Source of the DNA: Achromobacter aloeverae
GTDB lineage: Bacteria > Pseudomonadota > Gammaproteobacteria > Burkholderiales > Burkholderiaceae_B
Reading direction: 5' to 3'
Length of the DNA stretch: 64,000 nt
NCBI RefSeq assembly: GCF_004121055.1
Contig: NZ_PYAL01000003.1
Span: 434,001-498,000, forward strand
The notes below the pieces were generated by a model. That model was not told the origin of the DNA and searched no databases. It saw nothing but the letters and a program-made list of their open reading frames with translations. Both the position numbers and the translations under genes were made by a program. Below, in pieces: positions 10,410 to 54,503 of the stretch. Every line of letters starts with the position of its first letter. The first letter of the stretch is position 1.

Positions 10410-10490
10410 GTCGGTTCCTTGTACGGGATGAAGGGGCTGTCCTTATCTATCCCGGACGAGATCGGGAAATCGACAATGGGTGTGGCTGGT

Positions 10491-10760
10491 GCCCCCACGC
10501 CGCGCGGCTGCGCCGCTTGCTGCCCCCCGAGGGGGCCCTCTCGCCTTGGGGCGGCCCGGCGGCGAGAGGTGCCCCCACGCCGCGCGGCTGCGCCGCTTGC
10601 TGCCCCCCGAGGGGGCCCTCTCGCCTTGGGGCGGCCCGGCGGCGAGAGGTGCCCCCACGCCGCGCGGCTGCCGCCGCTTGCCGCCCCCACGCCGAGGGCT
10701 ATCGCCGCATGCCTTCCACGGGGCCTCTTTTGCCTTGGGCCGGCCCATCGGCAAGGCGCA
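10491..10760. repeat. Tandem array of ~80-bp GC-rich palindromic intergenic repeats (array A)
   Basis: Two nearly identical 80-bp units begin at 10491 and 10571, and a third degraded copy begins at 10651. Each contains CGCGCGGCTGCGCCGC, a C-rich/G-rich palindrome (CCCCCCGAGGGGG) and GCCTTGGGGCGGCCCGGC, all able to fold. The third copy runs into the end of fecR, so the last residues of FecR are repeat-encoded. Similar elements are common between genes in Bordetella and relatives; they may act as terminators or mRNA stabilisers. This is the only content of the 10,410-10,698 gap. Confidence 0.85.
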
Positions 10761-13068: not shown

Positions 13069-13083
13069 GGGACCGTACTTTAC

Positions 13084-13296
13084 CTCGGGGGGCAGCAAGC
13101 GGCGCAGCCGCGCGGCGTGGGGGTCTATTTTTGCCGCCGGGCCGCCCCAAGGCAAAAAAGCCCCCTCGGGGGGCAGCAAGCGGCGCAGCCGCGCGGCGTG
13201 GGGGTCTATTTTTGCCGCCGGGCCGCCCCAAGGCAAAAAAGCCCCCTTGGGGGGCAGCAAGCGGCGTAGCCGCGCGGCGTGGGGGTCTATTTTTGT
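13084..13296. repeat. Tandem array of ~81-bp palindromic repeats (array B), inverted relative to array A
   Basis: Two full units and one partial unit, with the element GGCAGCAAGC recurring at 13091, 13172 and 13253 (period 81). The unit is the reverse complement of that in the 10.5-kb array with a few differences; here the hairpin arm reads CCAAGGCAAAAAAGCCCC. It lies between the membrane-protein start and the carboxylesterase gene. Confidence 0.85.
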
Positions 13297-13362
13297 CTAC
13301 GATATGCCGCTTGAACAAAATTACTGCGCCCATCGCGGGCAGGCCTAAGGAGCAGGAGCGAC

Positions 13363-32691: not shown

Positions 32692-32757
32692 AAGATTTAG
32701 AGATGGTGCCCGGGGCCGGAATCGAACCGGCACGCCTTGCGGCGGGGGATTTTGAGT
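32692..32757. repeat. Left attachment site (66-bp direct repeat, tRNA-Leu 3' fragment)
   Basis: Identical to 54438-54503. Bases 32704-32757 (minus strand) are the tRNA-Leu 3' part from the anticodon stem to CCA, and 12 further bases follow. It cannot make a tRNA because the 5' half is missing. Confidence 0.95.
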
Positions 32758-33064: not shown

Positions 33065-33736
33065 CTACCGTGATAGAGATGAAGGAGGCAATCTATTTCC
33101 CGGAACGCGCATGAAAATTACAGACCTTTCATCGGTTAGCGAATGCTTGCGCTTGAGGACGCCGAAACAGTCTGAGACGTGGGGGACGCCGGGCTCTCGG
33201 ATCGATAGGTCCAATGTGGCGAGCACCCCTAGACGCACATCTGTTGAACTGTAAGAAGCGGCTTGCTTGGAATGCGGGCGCACGCTAAAGCACGACCAAG
33301 TGCGCGAGGTCGTTCTTTTCACTTCGATGATGAAGCGGAAGCCGTTCAGGGGCAGATATATATCCGTCCGTCCGCTTGCCACATTGGAGACTTCGAGAAG
33401 GACGGACGGCATTGCACTCAATAGATAGTTATAGAGGTCGAATTGAAGTTCCGATTCATGAGGAAGTTGCTTTCTGTCATTGACCCGTGACAGGTACGCC
33501 ATGTGGCCGTGAAAAGCATTGGCGTCTGCTCGCGATGTCAAAAACTTGCAAAGGCGGACTATTAGCAAGTCAAACCAGCCCTTTACCTCGCCTCTATAGT
33601 CCGGATTCCCCACCAATTTCTTCCGGACCTTCTCCACCATACCTTGCTCAATGATGGACAGTGGTACACGTGTCACAGCACAGCCATCGGCGAACTTGAT
33701 GACGGCTTCCCTGTCCGCTGCGTTTAGACTGGCCAT
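33065..33736 (-). CDS. PD-(D/E)XK nuclease-fold protein of an ABC-ATPase conflict operon
   Basis: A 223-residue protein. A PD-(D/E)XK core is visible: ESELQFDLYNYLL (Glu94/Glu96), SGRTDIYL (Asp125) and FIIEVKR (Glu138-x-Lys140). The C-terminal ATLDLS and MRVPGNRLPPSSLS blocks resemble tails of other restriction-like nucleases of conflict systems. ATG 33736 is the first start codon, but the frame continues open upstream for at least 50 bases with a coding-like sequence (EKAAQWPSDLLENL) and no start. It overlaps the end of the preceding gene, so the nuclease may instead be made by frameshifting from it. Last gene of the four-gene operon. Confidence 0.75.
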   Translation of the reverse strand: MASLNAADREAVIKFADGCAVTRVPLSIIEQGMVEKVRKKLVGNPDYRGEVKGWFDLLIVRLCKFLTSRADANAFHGHMAYLSRVNDRKQLPHESELQFDLYNYLLSAMPSVLLEVSNVASGRTDIYLPLNGFRFIIEVKRTTSRTWSCFSVRPHSKQAASYSSTDVRLGVLATLDLSIREPGVPHVSDCFGVLKRKHSLTDERSVIFMRVPGNRLPPSSLSR

Positions 33737-33777
33737 TAAGTTCTCGAGAAGGTCGGATGGCCACTGAGCCGCCTTCT

Positions 33778-34941
33778 CTAGCGTTTTCCCGGCGGTGCTC
33801 CAAGTTGTACAAGGTTTGCCTCGAGCTGGGTTCGCCCTTGCGGCGAGACGTTGGCAGTGCTGCTTTGTAGCCAGGTTTGCATCATTCCTATCAGTCGCCC
33901 CTGCTGCGCGATCTTGCTGATGCCTTGAGGAGGTCGGTACTCCACCCCTCCCTTAACTCGGATGGGAATCGAGCGGACTTTCTCAAAAAGCTGGATTGCG
34001 CCGGCAAGTAGAGAAAAGAAGGCTTGAGGCTCTGATGTGTTCAACGGTGCAAGCAGGGGGATCCATTCCAGTTCAGCTTCAGGCGGTGGGTGCAACCAAC
34101 CAGCCCCGGCTCTGGGGGGGTTGTATTGCACTACCCATTGTGCGTCTTCTCTGAGAGTGGAGATATTTGTGGCCCCGGCTCCATCGGAAGTAAGGGCGCC
34201 CGCGAGGGCTCCTGCGATAACACCATACATCCTGGCTCTCGGCGCGTCTTCCGCGAGTCGTGCGCTCTCATTGAACCAAGTTGCAGATTTGGCTAGATAT
34301 GCCTTCATCGAGACGATATCTTCGCTTCGAAAGGCGTTGGCCATCTCAATGAATCCCAACTCTTGCCTGGCCTCGACAGCACAGGCCTGGCTTTTGGAGA
34401 GAGTAACAAGTGATTCAGCTGCATCGGTCCAGTTCAAATGCTCATGGAGCACGGACGTGATGCGGCAGAGCTTAGCCTTCACCCACTCATCGTCGACATC
34501 GATTAAACGAAGTACTCCGGCAATTGCGAATGGGCCGTACTTTGTCGATTGAAGTGCAAGGCGGACGACTCCTGCTACGGCTTCAATTCGGATGAACAGC
34601 GGGGAGTCGTCGTCTCCGGCTCGTGCGTCTAGCGCTTTGACAAACGGCGCCAAATCTTCCATGCCACTGTCCGCAATAGCGTCTATGGCGTGAATAAGAG
34701 GGTCACGTAGCTGATTGCGCTTTAGCCCAGCGCAAATGGTACGAATGGCCGAGACAGGATCGTCTAAGTCCGGCCATTGCGCTATTAATAACTCTACAAA
34801 ATCACCGAAGAGCGGAGAGGTGACAAGGACTTCCCCCTCGCCCATGAGTTCCGCTTCCGGAAAATCTTGAGCCGACGGATGAGCACCTTCGGCTAAGATC
34901 GCCAGAAGGCGCTCCTGTAGTGGTGATTGTGCTGTCCACAT
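33778..34941 (-). CDS. Alpha-helical protein of unknown function in the ABC-ATPase operon
   Basis: A 387-residue soluble, mostly helical protein without recognised domains; repeated amphipathic helices (for example DPLIHAIDAIADSGMEDLAPF) suggest a HEAT-like scaffold. ATG 34941 lies 20 bases after the ABC ATPase stop; the frame opens further upstream but there it shadows the ATPase gene. The last codons read G-GGA-AAA then CGC-TAG, a canonical -1 slippery heptamer before the stop, and the -1 frame leads straight into the nuclease gene. It may therefore be the N-terminal part of a larger effector. Confidence 0.7.
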   Translation of the reverse strand: MWTAQSPLQERLLAILAEGAHPSAQDFPEAELMGEGEVLVTSPLFGDFVELLIAQWPDLDDPVSAIRTICAGLKRNQLRDPLIHAIDAIADSGMEDLAPFVKALDARAGDDDSPLFIRIEAVAGVVRLALQSTKYGPFAIAGVLRLIDVDDEWVKAKLCRITSVLHEHLNWTDAAESLVTLSKSQACAVEARQELGFIEMANAFRSEDIVSMKAYLAKSATWFNESARLAEDAPRARMYGVIAGALAGALTSDGAGATNISTLREDAQWVVQYNPPRAGAGWLHPPPEAELEWIPLLAPLNTSEPQAFFSLLAGAIQLFEKVRSIPIRVKGGVEYRPPQGISKIAQQGRLIGMMQTWLQSSTANVSPQGRTQLEANLVQLGAPPGKR

Positions 34942-34960
34942 AATGCCTATAGCGCTGTGC

Positions 34961-36889
34961 TTACCACAGTGTATCGGCACCAGTTGCCAAAAGGCAACGG
35001 TCCTCATCGAAGTGCTGCAAGGCACGGGCTGCGCCACGGAATGCCACGAAAAGTTGAAGGTCCACGGTAGCAGCAAGCTCCGACAGCGCGGTAAGCATTT
35101 CCTCCACGTTGGCATCCGCCATTTCCTCTTTGGCTGGAGAATCAACGACTAGAAGGCCTGGATGCCTGCCCGCACCAAACTGTTGAGATGCCTGAAGTAG
35201 GGCGATGACGGTTGCGATACGCACACGCAAGCGTTCACCCGGAGAGAGTCCACCAAAACTGGATTGGCTACCGCCCTTGTGCAACTCCACGCTTGCGTTG
35301 CGCTTTAAAACCACTCGTTCGACGTCTCGCATGCCAAGGCGTACCACTAGCTGGCGGATAAGGTCACCGCTACGGGCAAGAATTTCCGTGGCTGCAAGCT
35401 CAACTTCGGCCTTTGCGACTTCTGTGGCCTGCGTCAGGATTGCTAAATCCCCCTCTTCGCCGCTGTCGGCGTCCACTAGTTTCCTGATAGCTTCCAGCGT
35501 TCCCTCCAGACGGGCTGCCTCTAATCGGAGCTTTTGCTCTTCCTGTGCGGTGCCACTGGCTGACAGTTCGGCAAGCTCGTCCGCGGTAGCTTCAAGCAGT
35601 GTCCGACTCTTCTCAAATTCTTCCGTAAGTTCGTCGGCTTTCAGTCTGGCGGTTTTGAGTTCTCGCTCAAGTTTTGCAATGGCCTTTTGGGCGGCCGCTT
35701 TCAGCGCTTCATGATCGACTTCTGCTCCGTCTTCCACCTTGGTAAGGCATACAGCGCACTCGCCTGTGGTTAGCTCATTTTTCTGACGGCTCGATGAAAA
35801 GGCCCGGGTGCACCTAGGGCAGCAGGTGGGAGAAAGTCGACTCAGAAAGTGGGACGCAGCAGCTTCTTCTTCGAGCTCCAAAAGTTCGCGCTTCTTGGCA
35901 AGCAATTCCGCCGCACCGGCGGCGACTTCGGCGTTGACAGCAGTAGTGGTTGCTTTGAGCGTTGTTACCCGAGTCTCCAGCGCCGAGAAACGCTCGCGAA
36001 CTGTCTGAAGTTCTCCCAGCGCGGCTTCGCGGGCCACTCCGCTAGAAATTAGATTCTCGATTTCTGAAATCCTCGCTTCCATCTGGGCTATCGATTGATT
36101 GCCAAATTGGGATAGCTTCCGTTTTCGAGCTGACACTAGAGCTTCGGTGACGCGCTTGGCTGCCCGTGCCTGAAACAAGGTCGTGGCCCAAGGTATTCCG
36201 AGAAAAACTTGTAGCAGCCGTTGTGCGAGGTCTGTCCCAGTCGCGTCTCCTATGAGAGCATTGCTATCGCTATCGAAAAGAAGGGCTCCCGTGTAGGAAG
36301 TCCAGCCATCAGCGTACATTACCGTGGTTTCTCGAGAGGCGACCTCGCGTGAGGTAGCGATAGGCTCCAAATCCAAGGCGTCCAGCATGACGCTGTTCAT
36401 ATGGGCCTTGAAGGACTCAGGCGTGGTAAAGGGGAGCGAGTGAATCTTGCTACCATCTCTGTTGATCAAGTCAATGTTGCCATCAGGCTTGCCGTCGGCT
36501 ACATCAAACTTCACGCGAATGTGACGATCACCCGCCTGAAACTCTGCGTGTACATGCTGAGTCCAATCGCGAACAGTGGTCGTTAATGACTTAGGCTCGC
36601 CGCGCAATGCCCAAAGCATCACTTGGAGAGCACTAGACTTTCCTGCCAAGTTGGCGTCGGTGGCAATGACGTTGACCCCCTTCGATTGGGGTGTCCAATC
36701 GAAGGAGAATGGGTGGGCTTCGCCGTGGATCAACTTCACGCCGGAGAACGCTAACTTCTTGAGGCGCAAAGACCGTGAAATAGGAGGTGTAGGCGAATCA
36801 ACAATATTGTGGCGTGCAAGAACTGCAAGCACGTCATCCAGCTCGCGCCCGACACGCATCGCTATTTTTTCTGCATATGTGTCGCTCAC
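34961..36889 (-). CDS. SMC/Rad50-like ABC ATPase with zinc-hook-type cysteine pairs
   Basis: A 642-residue protein. Walker A is DANLAGKSS (about 78-86), followed by coiled coil. A hinge holds two CxxC pairs (CPRC near 357-360, CAVC at 378-381). A second coiled coil follows, then the ABC signature FGGLSPGERLR (about 545-555) and Walker B LLVVDSP (about 579-585), which lacks the usual Glu after the Asp. GTG 36889 overlaps the upstream stop as GTGA and follows AAGGGAG. Such ATPases sense DNA or invader structure in Lamassu, Wadjet, ABC-3C and related systems; the company it keeps best fits an ABC three-component system. That class assignment is inference. Confidence 0.85.
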   Translation of the reverse strand: MSDTYAEKIAMRVGRELDDVLAVLARHNIVDSPTPPISRSLRLKKLAFSGVKLIHGEAHPFSFDWTPQSKGVNVIATDANLAGKSSALQVMLWALRGEPKSLTTTVRDWTQHVHAEFQAGDRHIRVKFDVADGKPDGNIDLINRDGSKIHSLPFTTPESFKAHMNSVMLDALDLEPIATSREVASRETTVMYADGWTSYTGALLFDSDSNALIGDATGTDLAQRLLQVFLGIPWATTLFQARAAKRVTEALVSARKRKLSQFGNQSIAQMEARISEIENLISSGVAREAALGELQTVRERFSALETRVTTLKATTTAVNAEVAAGAAELLAKKRELLELEEEAAASHFLSRLSPTCCPRCTRAFSSSRQKNELTTGECAVCLTKVEDGAEVDHEALKAAAQKAIAKLERELKTARLKADELTEEFEKSRTLLEATADELAELSASGTAQEEQKLRLEAARLEGTLEAIRKLVDADSGEEGDLAILTQATEVAKAEVELAATEILARSGDLIRQLVVRLGMRDVERVVLKRNASVELHKGGSQSSFGGLSPGERLRVRIATVIALLQASQQFGAGRHPGLLVVDSPAKEEMADANVEEMLTALSELAATVDLQLFVAFRGAARALQHFDEDRCLLATGADTLW

Positions 36890-37539
36890 CCCAGGCTCCC
36901 TTCTTTGAGTTCGTTCAACCGTTGCAATACTCGCTGATTGATGGGCCCGATGACTTTGCCCCAACGAGCCTCTTGATATTCAGCTTGGGCGTACTGACGT
37001 TTCTTCAGTTCTTCACCGCTGGCGCTGCCTGCGACCCTTGCGACCAGGGCTGCTCTGTCACGGTACCAAGCCAGATGCGAAGAGAGCGATGCAAGGTCTT
37101 GCCCCACCGTCCTGCCAGACTCGAGGAGAAAGAAATCGGTGCGTCCAATGGTCCCGTCGGGCTTTATGGTGCGCTTGATAGCGGCGAGCCCTAATGAGAC
37201 AAGTAGCGACATCGAGTCGTCAATCTGTTCCCAGGCGCCAAACAGGAAACGCATCATATGCATGCGCCGTACATCAGGCTCGTCACCTTGCATAACTTTG
37301 AAGGCCTCGTCCAGATAACCGTCTTCTGGCCACTTCTCGTGCATAGCGACGAGCTCTGCCGCTAGGTAATCGGGGCAACGAACCCAAAAATCCAGGGCCT
37401 GAAGGCGCTTCTCAGCTTTCAGAACAGAAACTGCATTTTCTGGAGCGCCAGCTCCAGGCCTGGTGCCGGCTTTGTCTAGGATGAAGAGAATTCGGACCGC
37501 GTCGCGTTTGCGGGCGGTATGCTCAAGTGCACGTTCCAA
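36886..37539 (-). CDS. Probable ABC-3C-type middle component
   Basis: A 217-residue protein, first gene of the operon. The block EKRLQALDFWVRCPDYLAAEL resembles the lysine-leucine-aspartate 'KLDF-RYP' signature I recall from middle components of ABC three-component systems, small winged-helix-like proteins that link the ATPase to its effector. The C-terminal half is helical and charged. TTG 37539 is used because AGGGGG lies four bases upstream and there is no better start. It overlaps the ATPase gene by four bases. Confidence 0.6.
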   Translation of the reverse strand: MERALEHTARKRDAVRILFILDKAGTRPGAGAPENAVSVLKAEKRLQALDFWVRCPDYLAAELVAMHEKWPEDGYLDEAFKVMQGDEPDVRRMHMMRFLFGAWEQIDDSMSLLVSLGLAAIKRTIKPDGTIGRTDFFLLESGRTVGQDLASLSSHLAWYRDRAALVARVAGSASGEELKKRQYAQAEYQEARWGKVIGPINQRVLQRLNELKEGSLG

Positions 37540-37671: not shown

Positions 37672-37905
37672 TCATGACGAAGACTTTGGGATCGTTAACG
37701 CGTCAGCGCGCGGCTGCACAAACTCTTGCAGGCTGATCTGACCATCGATGAAACGCTGGGCGTGGGCCTCATCTGCTTCACTGAGCGAGAAACCTTCTAG
37801 ACTGACGGAGGCCCGCGCGTAGTTAACAGCCGATTGGCGTCGACCGCGTTCGGCATCTGATATGGTTTTGTGGGGCTGTAACCCGCATTTATCTTCGCCA
37901 GCCAT
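37672..37905 (-). CDS. VbhA-family antitoxin (Fic inhibitor), orphan
   Basis: A 77-residue protein of the antitoxin VbhA type. The inhibitory helix motif (S/T)xxxE(G/N) is present as S33-VSL-E37-G38 within SAVNYARASVSLEGF, followed by the usual QRFIDGQISLQEFVQP. The motif's glutamate blocks ATP binding in the partner Fic AMP-transferase. No Fic gene is found downstream or elsewhere in the window. VbhA-VbhT pairs are common next to VirB/Trw secretion genes, which matches the nearby VirB5/VirB6 genes. AAGGGG precedes ATG 37905. Confidence 0.8.
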   Translation of the reverse strand: MAGEDKCGLQPHKTISDAERGRRQSAVNYARASVSLEGFSLSEADEAHAQRFIDGQISLQEFVQPRADALTIPKSSS

Positions 37906-38565: not shown

Positions 38566-39618
38566 TCACTTACCGTTGACGGAGCCGCCCTTTGTCGGTC
38601 CCCAGTTCTTGCCCATATTCTGCAAGACGTGTTGCCGATAGGCTGGGTTCCATATGGTGTTGCCTGCAATCATGTGGTTGGTTCGGCCAGCAGTAACCAT
38701 CATGCCCGACTGCATATCGCGGCGAGTCGTCTTAGGATTCACCACGTTGCCAATACCCTGGGCCATGCTCCTGAATGTCACAGCGTCAAAGGCGATGCCG
38801 CCAGCCAGTCTCGCCCCTAAGCCACTCGATTTTCTCTGCGCGAAGAAGATGATCAAGGCAAGAACGATGATCTGCACAAACGAATTGATGGGATTGTCCG
38901 TGGTCGTGCTTATTACCCTGTCGAACAGCGCCTTGAAGAGCGCCACACCGATAGATACGACAACCATTGTGATGGCAATTTCAAGGATGTAGGCCAGCGC
39001 CTGCTCAAACCATTTGTCGAACCATTTCGCGGTGACTGGAAACATTAGCGCCGCGATAAATAGTGGTCCGAGACCAAGCATTATTCCGAGACCGAGCTTT
39101 GCCATGATGATGGTCGCGGCCGCAGGCAAATGAATAAGAAACACGGCAATGGCCATCATGAGTGCATTCAGGGCATCCCAGAACATATGACCTAGTTCGT
39201 AGAACTGGCGCTTTGCGACTTTGCCTAGCATGTCGTAAGCCACGTTAAGCCCTTTGTCCGCCGAGTTATCCAGCACCTGATAGATGCTTGTCGCTTGAGC
39301 GTTAGACGTGGACATGATGTCGGCGAGACCTGTCTCCAGGCCTTGAATGGCCGACACAACAGTGGCGGTGTAAGAATCAGCTGTCATGCAGAATGCCGTG
39401 ATGATGAGGATCTTCATGCACTGCTTGATGAAGGTCTGAAACGGAGCTTCAACCGCGCCCGCGCTGATGGCGTAGCCAGTCAAGGTGATGTACAGCGTGA
39501 CGCCGGTCAGCATCAGCATTTGAAAGCCGAGGATGACGTTCGAAGCGGTTTCCGATACGAAGGTGTTCAGCATCGCATCGACGCTGCTGCCTATCCACTG
39601 GAATAAGGCGAATCCCAT
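38566..39618 (-). CDS. virB6: Type IV secretion system VirB6/TrbL-type inner-membrane protein
   Basis: A 350-residue polytopic protein with six or more spans. The family region HLPAAATIIMAKLGLGIMLGLGPLFIAALMFP is characteristic of VirB6/TrwI/TraD. VirB6 forms part of the inner-membrane channel of the conjugation machine. It follows eexN directly and is the last gene before a terminator. VirB2-4 and VirB7-11 homologues are absent here, so it cannot form a working apparatus alone. Confidence 0.9.
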   Translation of the reverse strand: MGFALFQWIGSSVDAMLNTFVSETASNVILGFQMLMLTGVTLYITLTGYAISAGAVEAPFQTFIKQCMKILIITAFCMTADSYTATVVSAIQGLETGLADIMSTSNAQATSIYQVLDNSADKGLNVAYDMLGKVAKRQFYELGHMFWDALNALMMAIAVFLIHLPAAATIIMAKLGLGIMLGLGPLFIAALMFPVTAKWFDKWFEQALAYILEIAITMVVVSIGVALFKALFDRVISTTTDNPINSFVQIIVLALIIFFAQRKSSGLGARLAGGIAFDAVTFRSMAQGIGNVVNPKTTRRDMQSGMMVTAGRTNHMIAGNTIWNPAYRQHVLQNMGKNWGPTKGGSVNGK

Positions 39619-40333: not shown

Positions 40334-41059
40334 TTAGCGTGCAAGCGGGTTGAAGACTTGAAGAGTGGGGTAGCCCCGTTGATCCACAATCTTTGCGTTG
40401 ATCTCCTTCCGCCGTTGCTGCTGTAGGCGGTCTTCGGCTGCCGCGACCATCTGGTACATCTGTAGCTTGGTCTGCTCGTTCTGAATCATGGCCTGCTCGG
40501 CCGCGATGCGGCCTTGCAGTTCAGCAATGGCTTTCGGGTCCTGGGTCTGGTTGATCTGCTGCATCAACTGGTCGATCTGGCTAAGGCGGTTTTTCGCGGC
40601 GTCGTAGGCATCGAGTGCAAAGGCTTTGTCTTGCGCACCTTTGACGGCTTGCGCTTCGCAGCTCGTGCGTTGCTCCGTCGAGGCAAAGCCGGCGCAGGCG
40701 TCATACACCTTGTTGTCGTTGTAGATGGACTCAGCGCGCCCGCTCAGGCCAGCATAGCCGCCTGATTTGACGGAGTCGTAGACGCTTTGCCAATCGCGCG
40801 GCAGGTAGTCCCGCAACTGCGGGCTGTTGAACAGTTCGCCCATGCCGCGCGCGCCGGTGACCGCAGCGTATTGCTGCTTCATCTGGTCGATCTGGCTGAC
40901 CATCTGGTCGTACTGCATCTTCCACTTCGCCATCGTTTCGATCTGGTTTTCCACGCTCTTGGCGATGGAAGCGCCATCCGTCACGGGGATTTGTGCGAAG
41001 GCGGCCGACGATGCGGCAATGCCGACGGTCAGAATGCAAGAGGCTGATAGTTTGTTCAT
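40334..41059 (-). CDS. virB5: Type IV secretion system VirB5/TrwJ-type minor pilus protein
   Basis: A 241-residue exported protein with a signal peptide and a helical mature part. AKWKMQYDQMVSQIDQMKQQYAAV and SRAESIYND-like segments and the long C-terminal helices match VirB5/TraC pilus-tip proteins. Two cysteines (Cys in YDACAGF and RTSCEAQ) may pair. ATG 41059 is chosen because AGGAG lies eight bases upstream. Confidence 0.85.
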   Translation of the reverse strand: MNKLSASCILTVGIAASSAAFAQIPVTDGASIAKSVENQIETMAKWKMQYDQMVSQIDQMKQQYAAVTGARGMGELFNSPQLRDYLPRDWQSVYDSVKSGGYAGLSGRAESIYNDNKVYDACAGFASTEQRTSCEAQAVKGAQDKAFALDAYDAAKNRLSQIDQLMQQINQTQDPKAIAELQGRIAAEQAMIQNEQTKLQMYQMVAAAEDRLQQQRRKEINAKIVDQRGYPTLQVFNPLAR

Positions 41060-41265
41060 GTTCGCCACTCCTGAGAGGTTGAGGGCGAACGTAGGACCGT
41101 GCTGTCCGGTCTGTCGGTCTGTTCAGGGACCGCGCCCAGTACGACAAAGCGTTCTTGGGGCGACTAAGCGGCCGATCTGCTCTCGGCGGTCGGAACCCTT
41201 CTTCTCGGGTCGGCACCCGGTACGCTAGGCGTCCTTGGGGCGGTGCAACGTTCGTTGTGGTTAAA

Positions 41266-41599: not shown

Positions 41600-42595
41600 T
41601 CAACGGCTCAGGTCGCCAGTGTCTGGATGGTTGGTCCCGTCCAGTCGATGGGCGTCCTTGGTCACTTCTGTGCTGCGCTGACTACGCTGTGGGACCTGTA
41701 GCGTTCTGTCCTGCGAGGGATCAAGGAACTGGACAATTTCCAGGGCGAGCGATTTGTCCTCTATGTCACCAGCGGACAAGGCTTTCGCAATGTGCCCGTA
41801 GCCATTCCTGATGGCACGTGAAACGCCGGAAAGCCTGCGTTGTTCCGGCTCAGCCGCTTTGGTGCTCTTGCCACGCTTGACGGCATGTCGCGTCGCCTGC
41901 TTGACCGTAGTGTGCGTGTTAGACCGTGCCCTACGTGGTGTGGCATTGGCCTCGATGCCTTGTTCGCGTAGTGCCTCGGCGAAGCGCTCCCGCCAGCGTT
42001 GCAGATCAGCTTTTCTCGGATTGAGCCGGCTTCCATCGAGGCCTAGCGTCTTGACGCAGAGGTGGCCGTGGGGATGAGCTTCGTCGTCATGGATGGCGAA
42101 TACATACGCGTGGTTGTCGCCGAACTCGGCTTTTGCGAATGCGCGGATGGCGTCGCTGACTGCGCGTCGGTCAATTCCGGGTGGCATGGACAGCACGATA
42201 TTGAACGTTTCGCGGCGCGAGCCGTTATCGGGCAACCCGTACTGGCCGCTTTTCCATTCGTCGCGCACGTCCTGCACGGCCTCACGGCCAAGGATAATTT
42301 CACCGTCTTCGTTCTCCAACGCTACCAGGCCGTTGCGCGATATGTAGTCGAGGTGTGCTTTCACCTGCACGATGCCTTTGCCACCGCCGGAGATTTTCAC
42401 CATGACTTCGGGCGCTTTGCGAGTGGTCAGCATTAACTTGTCACGGACCCGAGCGCTGCCGGTCAGCAGTAGAGGCTTAGAGGGTGGCGAAGTGCGGGAT
42501 CGCGTCACCGTGCGCTTTACGCCTTGGCTGGTGACGGGCTTGGTATAGATGCGTTCGCCCCAGTCCTTCAAAATTCCATCAATGACCAGACTCAT
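41600..42595 (-). CDS. MOBP-like relaxase
   Basis: A 331-residue relaxase/mobilisation nuclease. The three-histidine metal motif is H169 and HPHGH (174-178), preceded by the N-terminal region in which the catalytic tyrosine lies (HLDYISR, Tyr84 is a candidate). It should nick the oriT and pilot the strand during transfer. Its ATG overlaps the MobC stop as ATGA. Length is shorter than many MOBP relaxases, which carry extra C-terminal domains. Confidence 0.85.
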   Translation of the reverse strand: MSLVIDGILKDWGERIYTKPVTSQGVKRTVTRSRTSPPSKPLLLTGSARVRDKLMLTTRKAPEVMVKISGGGKGIVQVKAHLDYISRNGLVALENEDGEIILGREAVQDVRDEWKSGQYGLPDNGSRRETFNIVLSMPPGIDRRAVSDAIRAFAKAEFGDNHAYVFAIHDDEAHPHGHLCVKTLGLDGSRLNPRKADLQRWRERFAEALREQGIEANATPRRARSNTHTTVKQATRHAVKRGKSTKAAEPEQRRLSGVSRAIRNGYGHIAKALSAGDIEDKSLALEIVQFLDPSQDRTLQVPQRSQRSTEVTKDAHRLDGTNHPDTGDLSR

Positions 42596-48548: not shown

Positions 48549-50297
48549 CTAGCGGTCCAGTGCGCCTCTCAGCGTCGTGTTGAGTGCCTCGAACGCGCGG
48601 ATGACGGAGTCGAACACGAAGTCAAGCGCCTTTCCGTAACCCTGGCCGAGGCCACCCGTGTCGAACCCCATGGCTTGCAGCGGACCGACGTTTCCACCGA
48701 GCTCGTGCGCGTCGGCGATGCGCAGATCGTTGTTCAGAAATAGCGGCGCGAGCCGCTCGTTCTTGTCTTTCCAGCCCGTGGGCTCCTCGGCGCTCCGAAG
48801 GGCCGTGACATCCTTTTGCTCGCCCTCGAGGCGCTCGAGGAGATTGAGCACTCCCTGAAGAAGCTTGGCGCTTGCCAGGCCGTCTACCTCCTTCGCAGGG
48901 CAACCGGCTGCTTTCAGCAGGCGCTTCAGATGCGCGGCGGAGATGCTTTGCCAGGTCTCGTGCAGAACCTTGCACCTGCTCAGAAAGGCCTGCTGCGACA
49001 TCTCCAATGGGGCGACTTGCGCGAGGCGGCTCAGCTGGGGATATCGATGCCACCAGTTGGCCGTGATCTCGCCGCGAGAGAACTTCAGCACATCGTCGAC
49101 ATTCGCCTCCACCCCGACCGCCGCTCCGAGTTGTACGAGGTTGTCGGCGAGGTCAAGCAATTGCTCGACGAGACGCGCAGTCTTGGACGCGATGTGCTCC
49201 TCTGCGTGGTCCACTGCCTCGACTCGCCAAGGTGCCACTGCATGCTGGTGAGCGTGCAGGATTTCCCGGTCGGGCTTGGGTTTGTAGAGCTCGCGGATTG
49301 GAACTCGAATCAGGTTGCGTCCGATGCGCTCGCACCCAGAGAATGCCCACTGGCCACCGTAGGACGGGTTGCACGAGCCTCGCCGACCCGGCATGGAGTC
49401 GAAGTGCTCGTTCTGCTCGTATCTCTCAAGGAACCGGTCGTCCAGGTAGACAATGCTTCCATGCAGCTGAGCGTTCGCCCAAGCATGCGTCACCGGATTT
49501 TCGATTCCGGGCCAGGCGAGCCCGTCAGCCCCTCGCTCGGGAGTTTGCTCACAGCTTAGGGCGACAACTGTCGCCCAGACCTGGAGGAGGAGACGCCCCT
49601 CGTTCTCACGCAGATCAACCTGATACCAACCGCCTTCTGGCTCCGCGAGGAAATGGTCCTGGCCGTTCATGAGCTCGCGCAGCTCGGGGCCGTCGGCAAG
49701 GCTCGCCTGATAGTAGAACGCGCGCGCGCCTACGGCACCGCGCATCCAGAGGTACCTTCTGAGGTACTCGTTGCGCATGCTCCAGTTGACGTTTCTCGAT
49801 GACTCGAAGTGGTACTGGGCCGAGATCTCACCCTGCGCGACTTCGAAAACCGGCAGGCTGAGATCGTCGTAGACAAGGTGCTGCTGTTCGTTGCCCACGC
49901 ACCGAGCGCTGAGTCCGAGCGCCATCCAGACCTTTTCGGCCAAGTTGAAACTGAATCTGGAGCCGTCACCCCAGGCGGCCACAATGTAGTCGTAGCTTGA
50001 AACGGAAGGGTCGAACTTGTTCGAGGAACCCTTGGCACCCACGACCGGCACGGAGCTAGCCACGAGCCCTTCGCCGGCTTCATCCAGCACGCCGAGCCCT
50101 TCGGCCTCATCCTCCGGCACCACGGCGGTGAGCATGTGCACGCATTCCAGACCAAGCCCCGGAGTTTCCTCCTCGAACATCGATGCCACCTCGACGGGTT
50201 GATCTGGGTCGAGGCCGATTGGACGTAGAAGGGCCCGAAGCTTGGCCGGAAGTAGGCGCGCAGGGATCGGAAATTCGGCGAGATAGTTGATTGGCAT
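48549..50297 (-). CDS. Large protein of unknown function paired with a PD-(D/E)XK nuclease
   Basis: A 582-residue soluble protein without recognised domains. The N-terminal half looks alpha/beta (VEVASMFEEETPGLGLECVH, DYIVAAWGDGSRFSFN), and the C-terminal part is helical with LVEQLLDLADNLVQLG and LLQGVLNLLERLEG. Cysteines are few and there are no membrane segments. It follows the nuclease gene by 32 bases on the same strand, so the two form an operon. Possibly the sensor or partner of that nuclease. Confidence 0.7.
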   Translation of the reverse strand: MPINYLAEFPIPARLLPAKLRALLRPIGLDPDQPVEVASMFEEETPGLGLECVHMLTAVVPEDEAEGLGVLDEAGEGLVASSVPVVGAKGSSNKFDPSVSSYDYIVAAWGDGSRFSFNLAEKVWMALGLSARCVGNEQQHLVYDDLSLPVFEVAQGEISAQYHFESSRNVNWSMRNEYLRRYLWMRGAVGARAFYYQASLADGPELRELMNGQDHFLAEPEGGWYQVDLRENEGRLLLQVWATVVALSCEQTPERGADGLAWPGIENPVTHAWANAQLHGSIVYLDDRFLERYEQNEHFDSMPGRRGSCNPSYGGQWAFSGCERIGRNLIRVPIRELYKPKPDREILHAHQHAVAPWRVEAVDHAEEHIASKTARLVEQLLDLADNLVQLGAAVGVEANVDDVLKFSRGEITANWWHRYPQLSRLAQVAPLEMSQQAFLSRCKVLHETWQSISAAHLKRLLKAAGCPAKEVDGLASAKLLQGVLNLLERLEGEQKDVTALRSAEEPTGWKDKNERLAPLFLNNDLRIADAHELGGNVGPLQAMGFDTGGLGQGYGKALDFVFDSVIRAFEALNTTLRGALDR

Positions 50298-50329
50298 TCG
50301 AGATGTCGCTAGAGGGTCGGCGTCCGCGA

Positions 50330-52000
50330 CTAGGAATTGGAGTTGTCGACGACGTCGTCGAGCGCGTCATCGTCTGCCGTCGGTGCGCCGAGCAACGGCG
50401 TCGTGATTTCGAAATCCTGCGGGTTGCGGGTCGAGAGCCGGGACGGGGGCGGAATGGCCAGACGCCGAGGTGGCCGCTTGGCGACGCGTTCGATCTCACT
50501 CAGGGGGTGTGCCTGGAAATGCTGGCGGAACGTCTTCTTGAGGGCGGTACTGTTAGTGCCAGCAACCAAGCGCCCCAGTTCGTCACCTTCGACAACCCGA
50601 AGGTCGTAGCGCTTCACGCGCGCCGCTTCGTCCGCGATTAGCCCGCGGGCCCGCACCGACAGTACGCCGCTGGTCCAGTACTCGAAGACTTGCCGGCACT
50701 CGCGCCACTGCCAAGTGGCCTGAGGTGAACGTCGCATCACTGGGATGCGCTCTTTTAGCCAGACCTCGACCATCTCGTCAGGGACGGTGCCGCCGGGCTT
50801 GTAGCCCTTGCACTCGATGAATCGGACGGACTGGTTGGCGTGATAGACCAGAACGTCGACCTCGGCCTGGCCGCCGGCGTCATCCTTGAGAATCTCGTTG
50901 AGGTCGATCGACGTGTGCGGGTCACGCTGACGCACGAGATCGGCGACGATGTACTCGAATAGAGCGCCTCGCAGGTTGGTGGCAGCGCCCTCGATGTGGC
51001 TGAGCTTGTCGAAGACAGCCGCGACCCTATCGAACGAGTCCGGACGCAGGTATGCGTCCTTGAGGATGTCGGTCAGCTCTCGAAGAGCCTTGGCGACCTC
51101 GAGCCCGAACAGGCTAGTCGTGGTCGCGGGAACGACACCGTTCTCCCTCGCAAGCGCGAAGGCCTCCGGCGTGTAGCCATCCGCTACAAAGACCTGCATG
51201 CAGCGGCCCACCTTCGCAAGCGCCCGCAGAGAGGTGCATTTATTGATGAACGGCTGGAGCTCGTGTGCGGCGACGTTGACCCCGAGCAGCACGTCGCAGA
51301 CGAGATAACCAGGCTTTTTCTTGTTGGCGGCCTTGTCCCACTGCGTGAGCGGACCAAGGTAGGAGGCGCCGGTCAGATCCCAGTTGAAGGTGCCCACCCG
51401 CGGCTGACCATCGTCCGTGTCGCGGAGTGCCACTGTGTTGTAGCTCACGAGCGCCAGGTTCCGGGCCCAGTCCTTGACGGCGCTGAGTAGCACAGCCTCT
51501 GTGTTCAGGCGTGCGCGCAGACGGTTGAGCTCCCACGGCGTTGCCTCTACAGTCTGAGCAAGCTCGATGCATTCACCGATCCCCGGGGCGTCGAAGCACG
51601 TCACCAATTGAGCACTCTTGAGGCGGTCAAGGACGCCTTGGGCCGGGATGTGGCCCTTCTGGGCGATGGGGGCGCCACACGCGATAAGGAAGTGCCTGAC
51701 CGGCATGACGCCGCCGCGGGCCATGAGGGCGGCAAGACCGCCGCCGTACGACGCGCTGTGCTGTAGAAGGCGCTTGACGAGCTCGTGCCAGAACTCCGGC
51801 GAGGCGTAGTCGCTCTGCAGGTAGACGAAGCGCGCCCCTCGAGGGAATACAAGGTGGGCGAGCTTCTTGATCTCCGTCGAGCGCGAGACGCGCTGCCGGG
51901 CCGTCGCGGGCGCCACACCTTCCTTGACCAAAGCGGCGACAAGCTCCGTGCTCAAGCATGGTCGGAGGGTCTGGAGCAGGCGAGTAAGCGAGTCAGCCAT
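50330..52000 (-). CDS. HTH-like N-terminus fused to PD-(D/E)XK nuclease domain
   Basis: A 556-residue protein. The first ~130 residues (STELVAALVKEGVAPATARQRVSRS, later IPAQGVLDRLKSAQLV) look like winged-helix modules. The middle is unassigned. Residues ~345-400 carry the nuclease motif: LFEY (Glu349), EVDVLV (Asp382) and FIECKGY (Glu396-x-Lys398). The last ~60 residues are Pro-rich and acidic. With its partner gene it resembles a restriction or anti-phage module of a type I cannot name. The start ATG 52000 has a weak ribosome-binding site. Confidence 0.75.
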   Translation of the reverse strand: MADSLTRLLQTLRPCLSTELVAALVKEGVAPATARQRVSRSTEIKKLAHLVFPRGARFVYLQSDYASPEFWHELVKRLLQHSASYGGGLAALMARGGVMPVRHFLIACGAPIAQKGHIPAQGVLDRLKSAQLVTCFDAPGIGECIELAQTVEATPWELNRLRARLNTEAVLLSAVKDWARNLALVSYNTVALRDTDDGQPRVGTFNWDLTGASYLGPLTQWDKAANKKKPGYLVCDVLLGVNVAAHELQPFINKCTSLRALAKVGRCMQVFVADGYTPEAFALARENGVVPATTTSLFGLEVAKALRELTDILKDAYLRPDSFDRVAAVFDKLSHIEGAATNLRGALFEYIVADLVRQRDPHTSIDLNEILKDDAGGQAEVDVLVYHANQSVRFIECKGYKPGGTVPDEMVEVWLKERIPVMRRSPQATWQWRECRQVFEYWTSGVLSVRARGLIADEAARVKRYDLRVVEGDELGRLVAGTNSTALKKTFRQHFQAHPLSEIERVAKRPPRRLAIPPPSRLSTRNPQDFEITTPLLGAPTADDDALDDVVDNSNS

Positions 52001-53186: not shown

Positions 53187-54314
53187 TTATGCGTTGTTCT
53201 CTGTTTGGGAGTCGGCCTCACTCCGTTGTTTAGAAGTGGACGGCGCGCGACGCGCGAGGCGGTCCAGCTTCTGCACCAGGTCTTCGGCCCGCAGATGCGT
53301 ATAGCGCTTGAGCATCTGCATCGACTTGTGGCCGCTGATGGCCGACACCTCCTGATCGCTCAAGCCGGCTTCCACGAACCGGCTGACAGCCTCGTGTCGC
53401 AGGTCGTGAAAGCGGAAGTCTTCAAGGCCCGCTGCTCGCTTGGCATCGGTCCATGCTTTGTCGAACAGGTAGGGGCGTCGTATGCCATCCCGGCCGGGTT
53501 CGCCGAAGAACACCAGTTCGGTTTCGGCTGGGCGCAAGGGGTTGGCCAGTGCCTCGGTGAACACTCGCGTTGCCTCGGCAGTCAGAGGAACGGTGCGGGG
53601 AGAAGAGTTCTTGGTGTGGTCCAGCCGCACGACGCGCCGCTCGATGTCTACTTGCCGAATACGCAGCGTCGCAATCTCGGACAGTCGCATGCCGGTCTGA
53701 ACGGCAATGCGGACGATCCAGCCGAACATCGGGTTGGAGTGCCTGTCCACGGCTTGCAGCAGGCGGGTCTGTTCTTCGGGAGTCAATCGCCGGTTGCGGC
53801 CCGAGCCGGGGGCAGGGCGGCGAATGTTGGACACTGGATTGAAGGGCAGGCCGATGCCCCATTCCTTGATCGCGACGGTGAACAGGTGGCCCAGCAGCGC
53901 TAGTTCCAAGCGTACCGTGTTGTTGCTGCGGGGTCGTAGCTTGCCATGCTTGTCCGGGTCGCCGGCCAGTCGCATGTCACGGAACTGCGCCACGATCTCG
54001 GCGTTCAGAGCGGCCAGCGAGTACTTGCCAAGATACCGGATGATGACTTGAGCTTTCTTGTGTTCGCCGGCTTGGGTCGAGGCCCGCTTGGTGGGCGTGA
54101 CTTCCTTGAGGTAGCGGGTCAGCGCCGCTTCGACGGTCATGCGCTCGGCGGGTGCGCGCTGGATATATACGCCGCGCACCATTTCGTCTTCGGTACGGCG
54201 CGCCCAGTCTTCGGCGTCCCGCTTGGTGCGGAACGTCTTGGCCGTGGCCGGCCAGCCGGTCTTGCGAATGAGGGCTTTCCAAGTGCCCGAGGAAGTCTTA
54301 ACAATCGTAGCCAT
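53187..54314 (-). CDS. int: Tyrosine recombinase (integrase) of the island
   Basis: A 375-residue phage-type integrase. The catalytic set is complete: Arg210 (TGMRLSEIATLR), Lys235, His303-x-x-Arg306 (HDLRHEA), His329 (GHKSMQMLKRYTH) and Tyr338. An N-terminal arm-binding domain and core-binding domain precede it. It lies 124 bases from the direct repeat in the tRNA and points away from it, the usual layout for integration into tRNA 3' ends. ATG 54314. Confidence 0.95.
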   Translation of the reverse strand: MATIVKTSSGTWKALIRKTGWPATAKTFRTKRDAEDWARRTEDEMVRGVYIQRAPAERMTVEAALTRYLKEVTPTKRASTQAGEHKKAQVIIRYLGKYSLAALNAEIVAQFRDMRLAGDPDKHGKLRPRSNNTVRLELALLGHLFTVAIKEWGIGLPFNPVSNIRRPAPGSGRNRRLTPEEQTRLLQAVDRHSNPMFGWIVRIAVQTGMRLSEIATLRIRQVDIERRVVRLDHTKNSSPRTVPLTAEATRVFTEALANPLRPAETELVFFGEPGRDGIRRPYLFDKAWTDAKRAAGLEDFRFHDLRHEAVSRFVEAGLSDQEVSAISGHKSMQMLKRYTHLRAEDLVQKLDRLARRAPSTSKQRSEADSQTENNA

Positions 54315-54437: not shown

Positions 54438-54503
54438 AAGATTTAGAGATGGTGCCCGGGGCCGGAATCGAACCGGCACGCCTTGCGGCGGGGGATTTTG
54501 AGT
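54438..54503. repeat. Right attachment site (66-bp direct repeat)
   Basis: Exact copy of 32692-32757. It covers the 3' part of the intact tRNA-Leu from the anticodon stem onward plus 12 bases. Confidence 0.95.

Follow-up and report, generated by a model that had tools for sequence, protein, structure and literature searches.

The window analyzed here is a stretch of 64,000 nucleotides (nt) from Achromobacter aloeverae (contig NZ_PYAL01000003.1, positions 434,001 to 498,000). Its minus strand carries, from position 37539 down to position 33065, the genes lmuC, lmuB and lmuA in this order. We read this locus as a Lamassu operon in which the decoding of lmuA involves a programmed -1 ribosomal frameshift, and put the probability of this reading, which is built on sequence analysis, at about 0.85. 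The products and the putative slip site are as follows:

36886-37539, minus strand: LmuC, middle component, 217 amino acids (aa), TTG start; PADLOC model PDLC03872, E 1.2e-71, model positions 6-215 of 220
34961-36889, minus strand: LmuB, SMC/Rad50-like ABC ATPase, 642 aa; PADLOC model PDLC03864, E 9.2e-166, model positions 7-657 of 657
33778-34941, minus strand: LmuA 0-frame product, helical domain, 387 aa, from ATG 34941 to the stop codon TAG at 33780-33778; PDLC03853 and our own hidden Markov model
33065-33784, minus strand: LmuA continuation in the -1 frame, 239 aa, PD-(D/E)XK-like nuclease; PDLC03853 positions 451-653
33784-33790, minus strand: predicted slippery heptamer G_GGA_AAA in the LmuA 0 frame

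A preliminary description of this sequence had proposed a four-gene operon. The four open reading frames (ORFs), overlapping or closely spaced on the minus strand, were found, but they make up only three genes, as the third and the fourth ORF matched positions 2-303 and 451-653, respectively, of one and the same LmuA model with 655 positions (PDLC03853), also when the genome was searched. The helical protein, which had not been matched to any named subtype, thus forms one modeled LmuA together with the nuclease ORF. The first 386 codons and the 239 aa of the -1 continuation add up to an LmuA of 625 aa; the start at ATG 34941 was assigned by position. The nuclease-like nature of the fourth ORF was borne out by a D-x12-E-x-K catalytic motif, in which D125, E138 and K140 were invariant in 41 sequences.

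LmuB, the start codon of which (GTG 36889) belongs to a GTGA overlap with lmuC, had been described as an SMC-like ATPase with two CxxC pairs, and these hook-like pairs (C382, P383, C385, C403, C406) were indeed invariant in an alignment of seven sequences, as were D608 and S609 of the Walker B motif VDSPAKEE. The absence of the usual Glu from this motif, also pointed out before, was confirmed and is usual for LmuB. For LmuB of Lamassu systems, PMC10586767 reports a Glu-to-Gln change at Walker B and describes the Cys-pair hook, which is often of the form CPxC.

PADLOC models for LmuA, LmuB and LmuC all matched, in agreement with the earlier proposal of an ABC three-component (ABC-3C) or Lamassu-type system. 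The components also stay together in unrelated genomes: an LmuC-like ORF was located directly upstream of LmuB in 54 of the 56 loci obtained by a scan of genome contigs with an LmuB alignment, and in the remaining two LmuB was close to the start of the fetched stretch. Judged by sequence, the operon is a Lamassu (ABC-3C) anti-invader system with the order lmuC-lmuB-lmuA. With type II, DdmABC-like systems it shares the three components, the Cys pairs of LmuB, the lack of the Walker B Glu and a nuclease effector. It differs in that the nuclease is C-terminal behind a helical domain of about 400 aa, whereas PMC10586767 puts the LmuA effector domain at the N-terminus, in the D-S of Walker B instead of the reported Glu-to-Gln change, and in the predicted -1 frameshift of LmuA. 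DdmA is described as a Cap4 domain followed by an unidentified C-terminal domain (PMC12409362). A housekeeping repair complex of the Rad50/SbcC type was rejected, with Pfam matches to Rad50/AAA_23 and to the Rad50 hook below cut-offs and a sporadic distribution; speaking against this rejection, coiled-coil residues 285-512 of LmuB resemble the SbcC-like phage family PHROG 77 (E 9.2e-14). Among 268 genomes of the same family, only the own genome had the nuclease part. With the LmuA model, 5 of 399 order-level and 12 of 398 phylum-level genomes gave a match, counts that include the own genome and several weak matches.

An AlphaFold2 model of an unsplit relative that carries the heptamer (L024, 659 aa) reached a predicted local distance difference test (pLDDT) score of 87.6. 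The model is all-helical to about residue 400, followed by a linker (residues 401-409, pLDDT below 50) and a second domain, part of which is mixed alpha/beta. In L024 the slip codons are residues 403-405, inside the linker; the predicted slip site thus falls, according to this model, between the helical and the nuclease domain. With the full L024 model as query, no Foldseek match reached E 0.001, and the 50 weak matches listed were largely solenoid-repeat proteins (armadillo and TPR proteins, for example), none of them titled as a DNA nuclease. Sequence searches of the PDB found no relative. Elsewhere in lmuA of the window, at codon 274 (34114-34120, minus strand), seven C occur in frame, and frame-0 homology continues beyond them. 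In locus L096 (2501-3100), the same nuclease domain ends an ORF of 714 aa, the N-terminal part of which is unlike this LmuA.

We classed lmuA in 71 loci (L005-L019 and L021-L076). It was a single ORF in 57 loci, split in 5, fragmented in 1 (L068) and partial in 3; 5 loci gave no match. Together with the window, this gives six split genes, the others being from Massilia kyonggiensis, Roseateles cellulosilyticus, a Rhodopseudomonas palustris metagenome-assembled genome (MAG), Azospirillum endophyticum and a Solirubrobacteraceae MAG. Compared with the window, LmuA was 63% identical in M. kyonggiensis, 57% in R. cellulosilyticus and 31% in the R. palustris MAG. In all six genes the split was at the same place, with the second part in the -1 frame at an in-frame G_GGA_AAN (N was A in four genes, G in one and C in one), and the part after the slip was 236-248 aa long. 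The frame-0 stop followed the heptamer after 0, 3, 3, 3, 42 and 90 nt, which argues that the heptamer is not just stop context. The split genes stood in three places of an LmuB tree, the window's clade of four (support 100/100) and two singletons. The singletons were on long branches and their placement is unsure; supported branches force at least three changes. In the dN/dS analysis (nonsynonymous to synonymous substitutions), synonymous sites were saturated.

A simple alternative would be a broken lmuA in the window, due to an ordinary frameshift mutation or to an error in the assembly. This would agree with the single ORF found in most homologs (57 of 71 loci and 14 of 14 further loci) and with the decayed look of L068, where the gene lies in three fragments. 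Such a break would not be expected to recur at the same spot, always in the -1 frame and always at G_GGA_AAN, in five other loci, nor to leave 236-248 aa open behind it and to be followed by a covarying RNA structure (see below). We consider a broken gene very improbable, and refuted unless the assemblies of the relatives contain an identical error; since the five other loci are split in this way, we take the LmuA split not to be decay. Further split copies were sought in 62 genomes of one genus, which returned the known one only, and a class search that covered 289 genomes added no usable LmuA gene. From 22 plasmid records with a nuclease match, 17 were examined; LmuA was a single ORF in each of the first 12. 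The LmuA on a Rhodococcus opacus B4 plasmid was without the initial portion of the model and was not preceded by an annotated LmuB. Scans of viral contigs gave no relative, one chance match, or two loci with a single-ORF LmuA, and blastn of the operon against plasmids gave no match.

A gene fission, with a separate nuclease starting at ATG 33736 and perhaps translated by re-initiation after the TAG, would fit the window, where this ATG follows 41 nt past the stop, and also locus L022, which has an ATG at the junction. It does not fit other split genes well: L021 has no start in the -1 frame before codon 31 after the slip, L033 has no ATG, GTG or TTG in this frame within the 21 open nt upstream or the 60 codons downstream, and L023 is without the junction ATG. 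In the -1 frame, the window, L021 and L022 have similar peptides directly past the slip. Fission, which would also leave the heptamer in unsplit genes unexplained, therefore appears unlikely.

The occurrence of the heptamer in unsplit genes was followed in an alignment of 71 unsplit and 6 split lmuA genes, near-copies included. At the window's aligned column, 18 unsplit genes had an in-frame GGGAAAA. Wherever Gly-Lys stood at the slip columns (these 18 genes and 5 split genes; L033 aligns elsewhere), it was encoded by G_GGA_AAN, in 23 of 23 cases, where 1.83 would be expected on the basis of the codon use of each gene with the Lys codon ignored. The residue before Gly varies between Pro, Ser and Leu, yet the last base of its codon was always G. 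Outside the hinge, as we call the region of the slip site, 39680 codon positions from 62 non-redundant LmuA genes contained the heptamer only five times. In the unsplit GGGAAAA genes a -1 slip would reach a stop after 4-24 codons and should lead to a truncated LmuA, as in dnaX. G_GG.A_AA.A/G/C is among the motifs of insertion sequence (IS) elements in PMC4066793, and PMC5009743 gives G_GGA_AAG as highly shift-prone in E. coli. Slippage during transcription was set aside, as the run of only three G and four A was judged too short for it.

In a held-out test it was predicted beforehand that new LmuA genes would show one of the slip motifs (a second one is described below). Of five new plasmid loci, one (L096) was dropped because its N-terminal part is not this LmuA. 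GGGAAAA was present at the hinge in three of the four remaining genes. The fourth gene, L100, had no X_XXY_YYZ heptamer in the scanned stretch, in a check that excluded the loose C_CCY class introduced below. The test was not very independent, since all new genes are plasmid genes from Streptomycetaceae and thus close to genes already included.

Downstream of the heptamer of the window, a simple H-type pseudoknot was predicted:

33772-33778, minus strand: stem 1, 5' arm GAGAAGG, 5 nt past the slip
33746-33752, minus strand: stem 1, 3' arm CCTTCTC
33757-33763, minus strand: stem 2, 5' arm TGGCCAT, within the loop of stem 1
33730-33736, minus strand: stem 2, 3' arm ATGGCCA, containing the ATG that opens the fourth ORF

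The pseudoknot score was reached by few of the 300 dinucleotide shuffles made per gene in five split genes (window 1, L021 2, L022 1, L023 2, L033 4) and by 96 in L064. In the six split genes the pseudoknots started 4-8 nt after the slip, and ranking against other positions of the own gene gave a median percentile of 0.017 for the pseudoknot. Among the four closest genes, 87.5% of the cells of the window pseudoknot stayed paired, with 5 double changes compared to 1.3 in shuffled alignments (reached by 0 of 500) and 0-2 when the structure was slid. For the stem downstream of the heptamer in the 18 unsplit genes, the median was 0.002 of own-gene positions. Stimulatory hairpins or pseudoknots are expected about 5-8 nt downstream of the slip (PMC4066793); spacers observed here were 3-8 nt. 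An Rfam search gave no family at threshold and one match far below it.

A second slip motif was found post hoc, after the stems at the same position of 53 control genes had proved strong. Many of these genes were then found to have A_AAC_CCC/T or T_TTC_CCT. In the A_AAC_CCY genes, with exact repeats removed, the -1 frame has a TGA one codon later in 15 of 15 cases; the stem begins 3-6 nt further on, mostly 5, and 10 of the 15 stems were under percentile 0.05. In total, the 77 genes comprise 24 with G_GGA_AAN, 17 with A_AAC_CCY, 4 with T_TTC_CCY, 16 with a looser C_CCY and 16 with none of these. The hairpin was tested on 32 rows of all C_CCY classes taken together, with exact repeats and minus-strand loci dropped and the weak-stem loci L069, L081, L090, L091 and L093 kept. 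It had 85.9% of cells paired and 58 double-change cells, compared to 18.1 after shuffling (0 of 500) and 6-20 when slid. In E. coli, shifting occurs at the tetramers C_CC.U and C_CC.C when they are combined with the IS3 pseudoknot (PMC4066793).

Other hinges were seen as well. L026, L030, L031 and L071, which are alphaproteobacterial, retain the hinge stem (percentiles 0.004-0.09) with CGA CTA, CGA ATA or CGT ATA followed by G, which gives an immediate TAG in the +1 frame; they possibly use +1 recoding in place of -1. The hinge of L027 has CGA AAA and a -1 TGA one codon later.

Stem and codons might alternatively act as a pausing signal for co-translational folding at the linker, which the split lineage exploited only secondarily. 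The location of the element at the inter-domain linker and the stem retained without the heptamer in some unsplit genes would be in line with this. Pausing, however, needs neither an X_XXY_YYZ motif nor a constant G before GGA despite the changes between Pro, Ser and Leu, nor a -1 TGA one codon past A_AAC_CCY in 15 of 15 genes, and we see little probability for it.

Several observations weigh against programmed frameshifting at lmuA. The control genes were not flat, with 25 of 53 stems under percentile 0.05; 16 of the 77 genes have no motif of either slip class, and chance could account for part of the loose C_CCY class (16 genes). The held-out prediction came true in only 3 of 4 genes, with unexceptional stems (percentiles 0.05-0.14). 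The first stem alone is only moderately unusual in the six split genes (median percentile 0.057), and the pseudoknot of L064 is no better than shuffles. The -1 stop distances in unsplit G_GGA_AAA genes are only mildly short. Upstream Shine-Dalgarno-like sequences of at least 4 nt were present in 17 of 23 genes, with own-gene percentiles of 0 to 0.67, and are not convincing. The ATG at the nuclease start of the window and L022 makes some independent initiation possible. Earlier work quoted in PMC4066793 found G_GGA_AAA inefficient in E. coli; the same paper later ranks G_GG.A_AA.A among the more efficient motifs in IS elements. With these points considered, real frameshifting at the lmuA hinge still appears highly probable to us.

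The operon is enclosed by an integrative element of 21.8 kb, the ends of which are perfect 66-bp direct repeats at 32692-32757 and 54438-54503. The latter repeat overlaps the 3' end of a tRNA-Leu(caa) gene. Repeats, tRNA overlap and integrase substantiate the location in an integrative island given in the preliminary description. The following genes were assigned within the island:

53187-54314: integrase
41600-42595: MobA/VirD2 relaxase
38566-39618: TrbL/VirB6
40334-41068: type IV secretion system protein

An ORF for a VbhA-type antitoxin (37672-37905, minus strand; Pfam E 1.9e-9) adjoins lmuC upstream; no Fic toxin partner was noticed next to it, in an inspection without a search aimed at one. 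Two neighboring large ORFs of 582 and 556 aa (48549-52000, minus strand) are present in the same island. The 556-aa ORF had a sub-threshold match to a NERD nuclease and the 582-aa ORF no match in Pfam or PADLOC; the pair is a possible unnamed two-gene conflict system. Tandem copies of a GC-rich unit of 80-81 nt were found at 10488-10671 and 13083-13325, and by eye the two sets look related and in inverted orientation.

Two products from one gene are known from dnaX, where a slippery heptamer and a downstream RNA structure give the long (tau) and the short (gamma) form and the -1 stop follows almost at once. The A_AAC_CCY LmuA genes resemble dnaX in their near-immediate -1 stop. The protein is unrelated, and in the window's lineage the outcome would be reversed, with the slip leading to the long form. 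In the IS3 family, orfA and orfB are fused by -1 frameshifting. The likeness to lmuA extends to a short 0-frame product, a -1 slip that fuses the catalytic protein, hairpin or pseudoknot stimulators and the motifs G_GGA_AAA/G/C (PMC4066793); the product is a transposase there and an immune effector here. Lamassu systems and -1 frameshifting are each known, and their combination is apparently unreported, although prior notice is possible. The titles and abstract openings searched, which did not extend to the 2025 Lamassu structure papers, reported no frameshifting for Lamassu or another antiphage effector, and a term search in the main text of the frame-transition survey PMC3711429 found no mention of nuclease, ATPase or defense.

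Under programmed frameshifting, ribosomes that stay in frame would read past G_GGA_AAA to the TAG and produce the nuclease-free helical protein of 387 aa. The pseudoknot 5 nt downstream would pause ribosomes, and some would slip back by one base and produce the nuclease-bearing LmuA of 625 aa. We conclude that nuclease production in the window's lineage would need the slip. Sister lineages would have the opposite polarity, in that no slip gives the full-length protein and a slip an early stop. Since the signal is kept across lineages of different polarity, both products may be needed, and the conserved trait would be the making of both LmuA forms in a set ratio. The short form might dock on LmuB/LmuC, or join or dilute LmuA oligomers, so that fewer active nuclease assemblies form, dose and threshold are fixed and the self-killing effector is kept safe until LmuB/LmuC sense foreign DNA. 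According to PMC12409362, LmuA is released on activation and assembles into a homotetramer, by which its Cap4 nuclease is activated. We give the ratio-setting role an even chance. It is doubtful, though conceivable, that two-product recoding is general to this LmuA family and belongs to the logic of its control, with the nuclease-free form as a regulatory subunit and with lineages that retained both products while swapping motif and polarity, in one alphaproteobacterial group perhaps even to +1. Both the supply of tRNA and the pausing of ribosomes determine slippage, so that phage takeover of translation may then alter the ratio of long to short form and help to trigger the nuclease.

Annotators would call such lmuA genes broken or two genes, and Lamassu systems of this kind are therefore easily misjudged. 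With a conserved recoding signal in an abortive-infection effector, the safe dosing of a self-killing nuclease would become open to testing.

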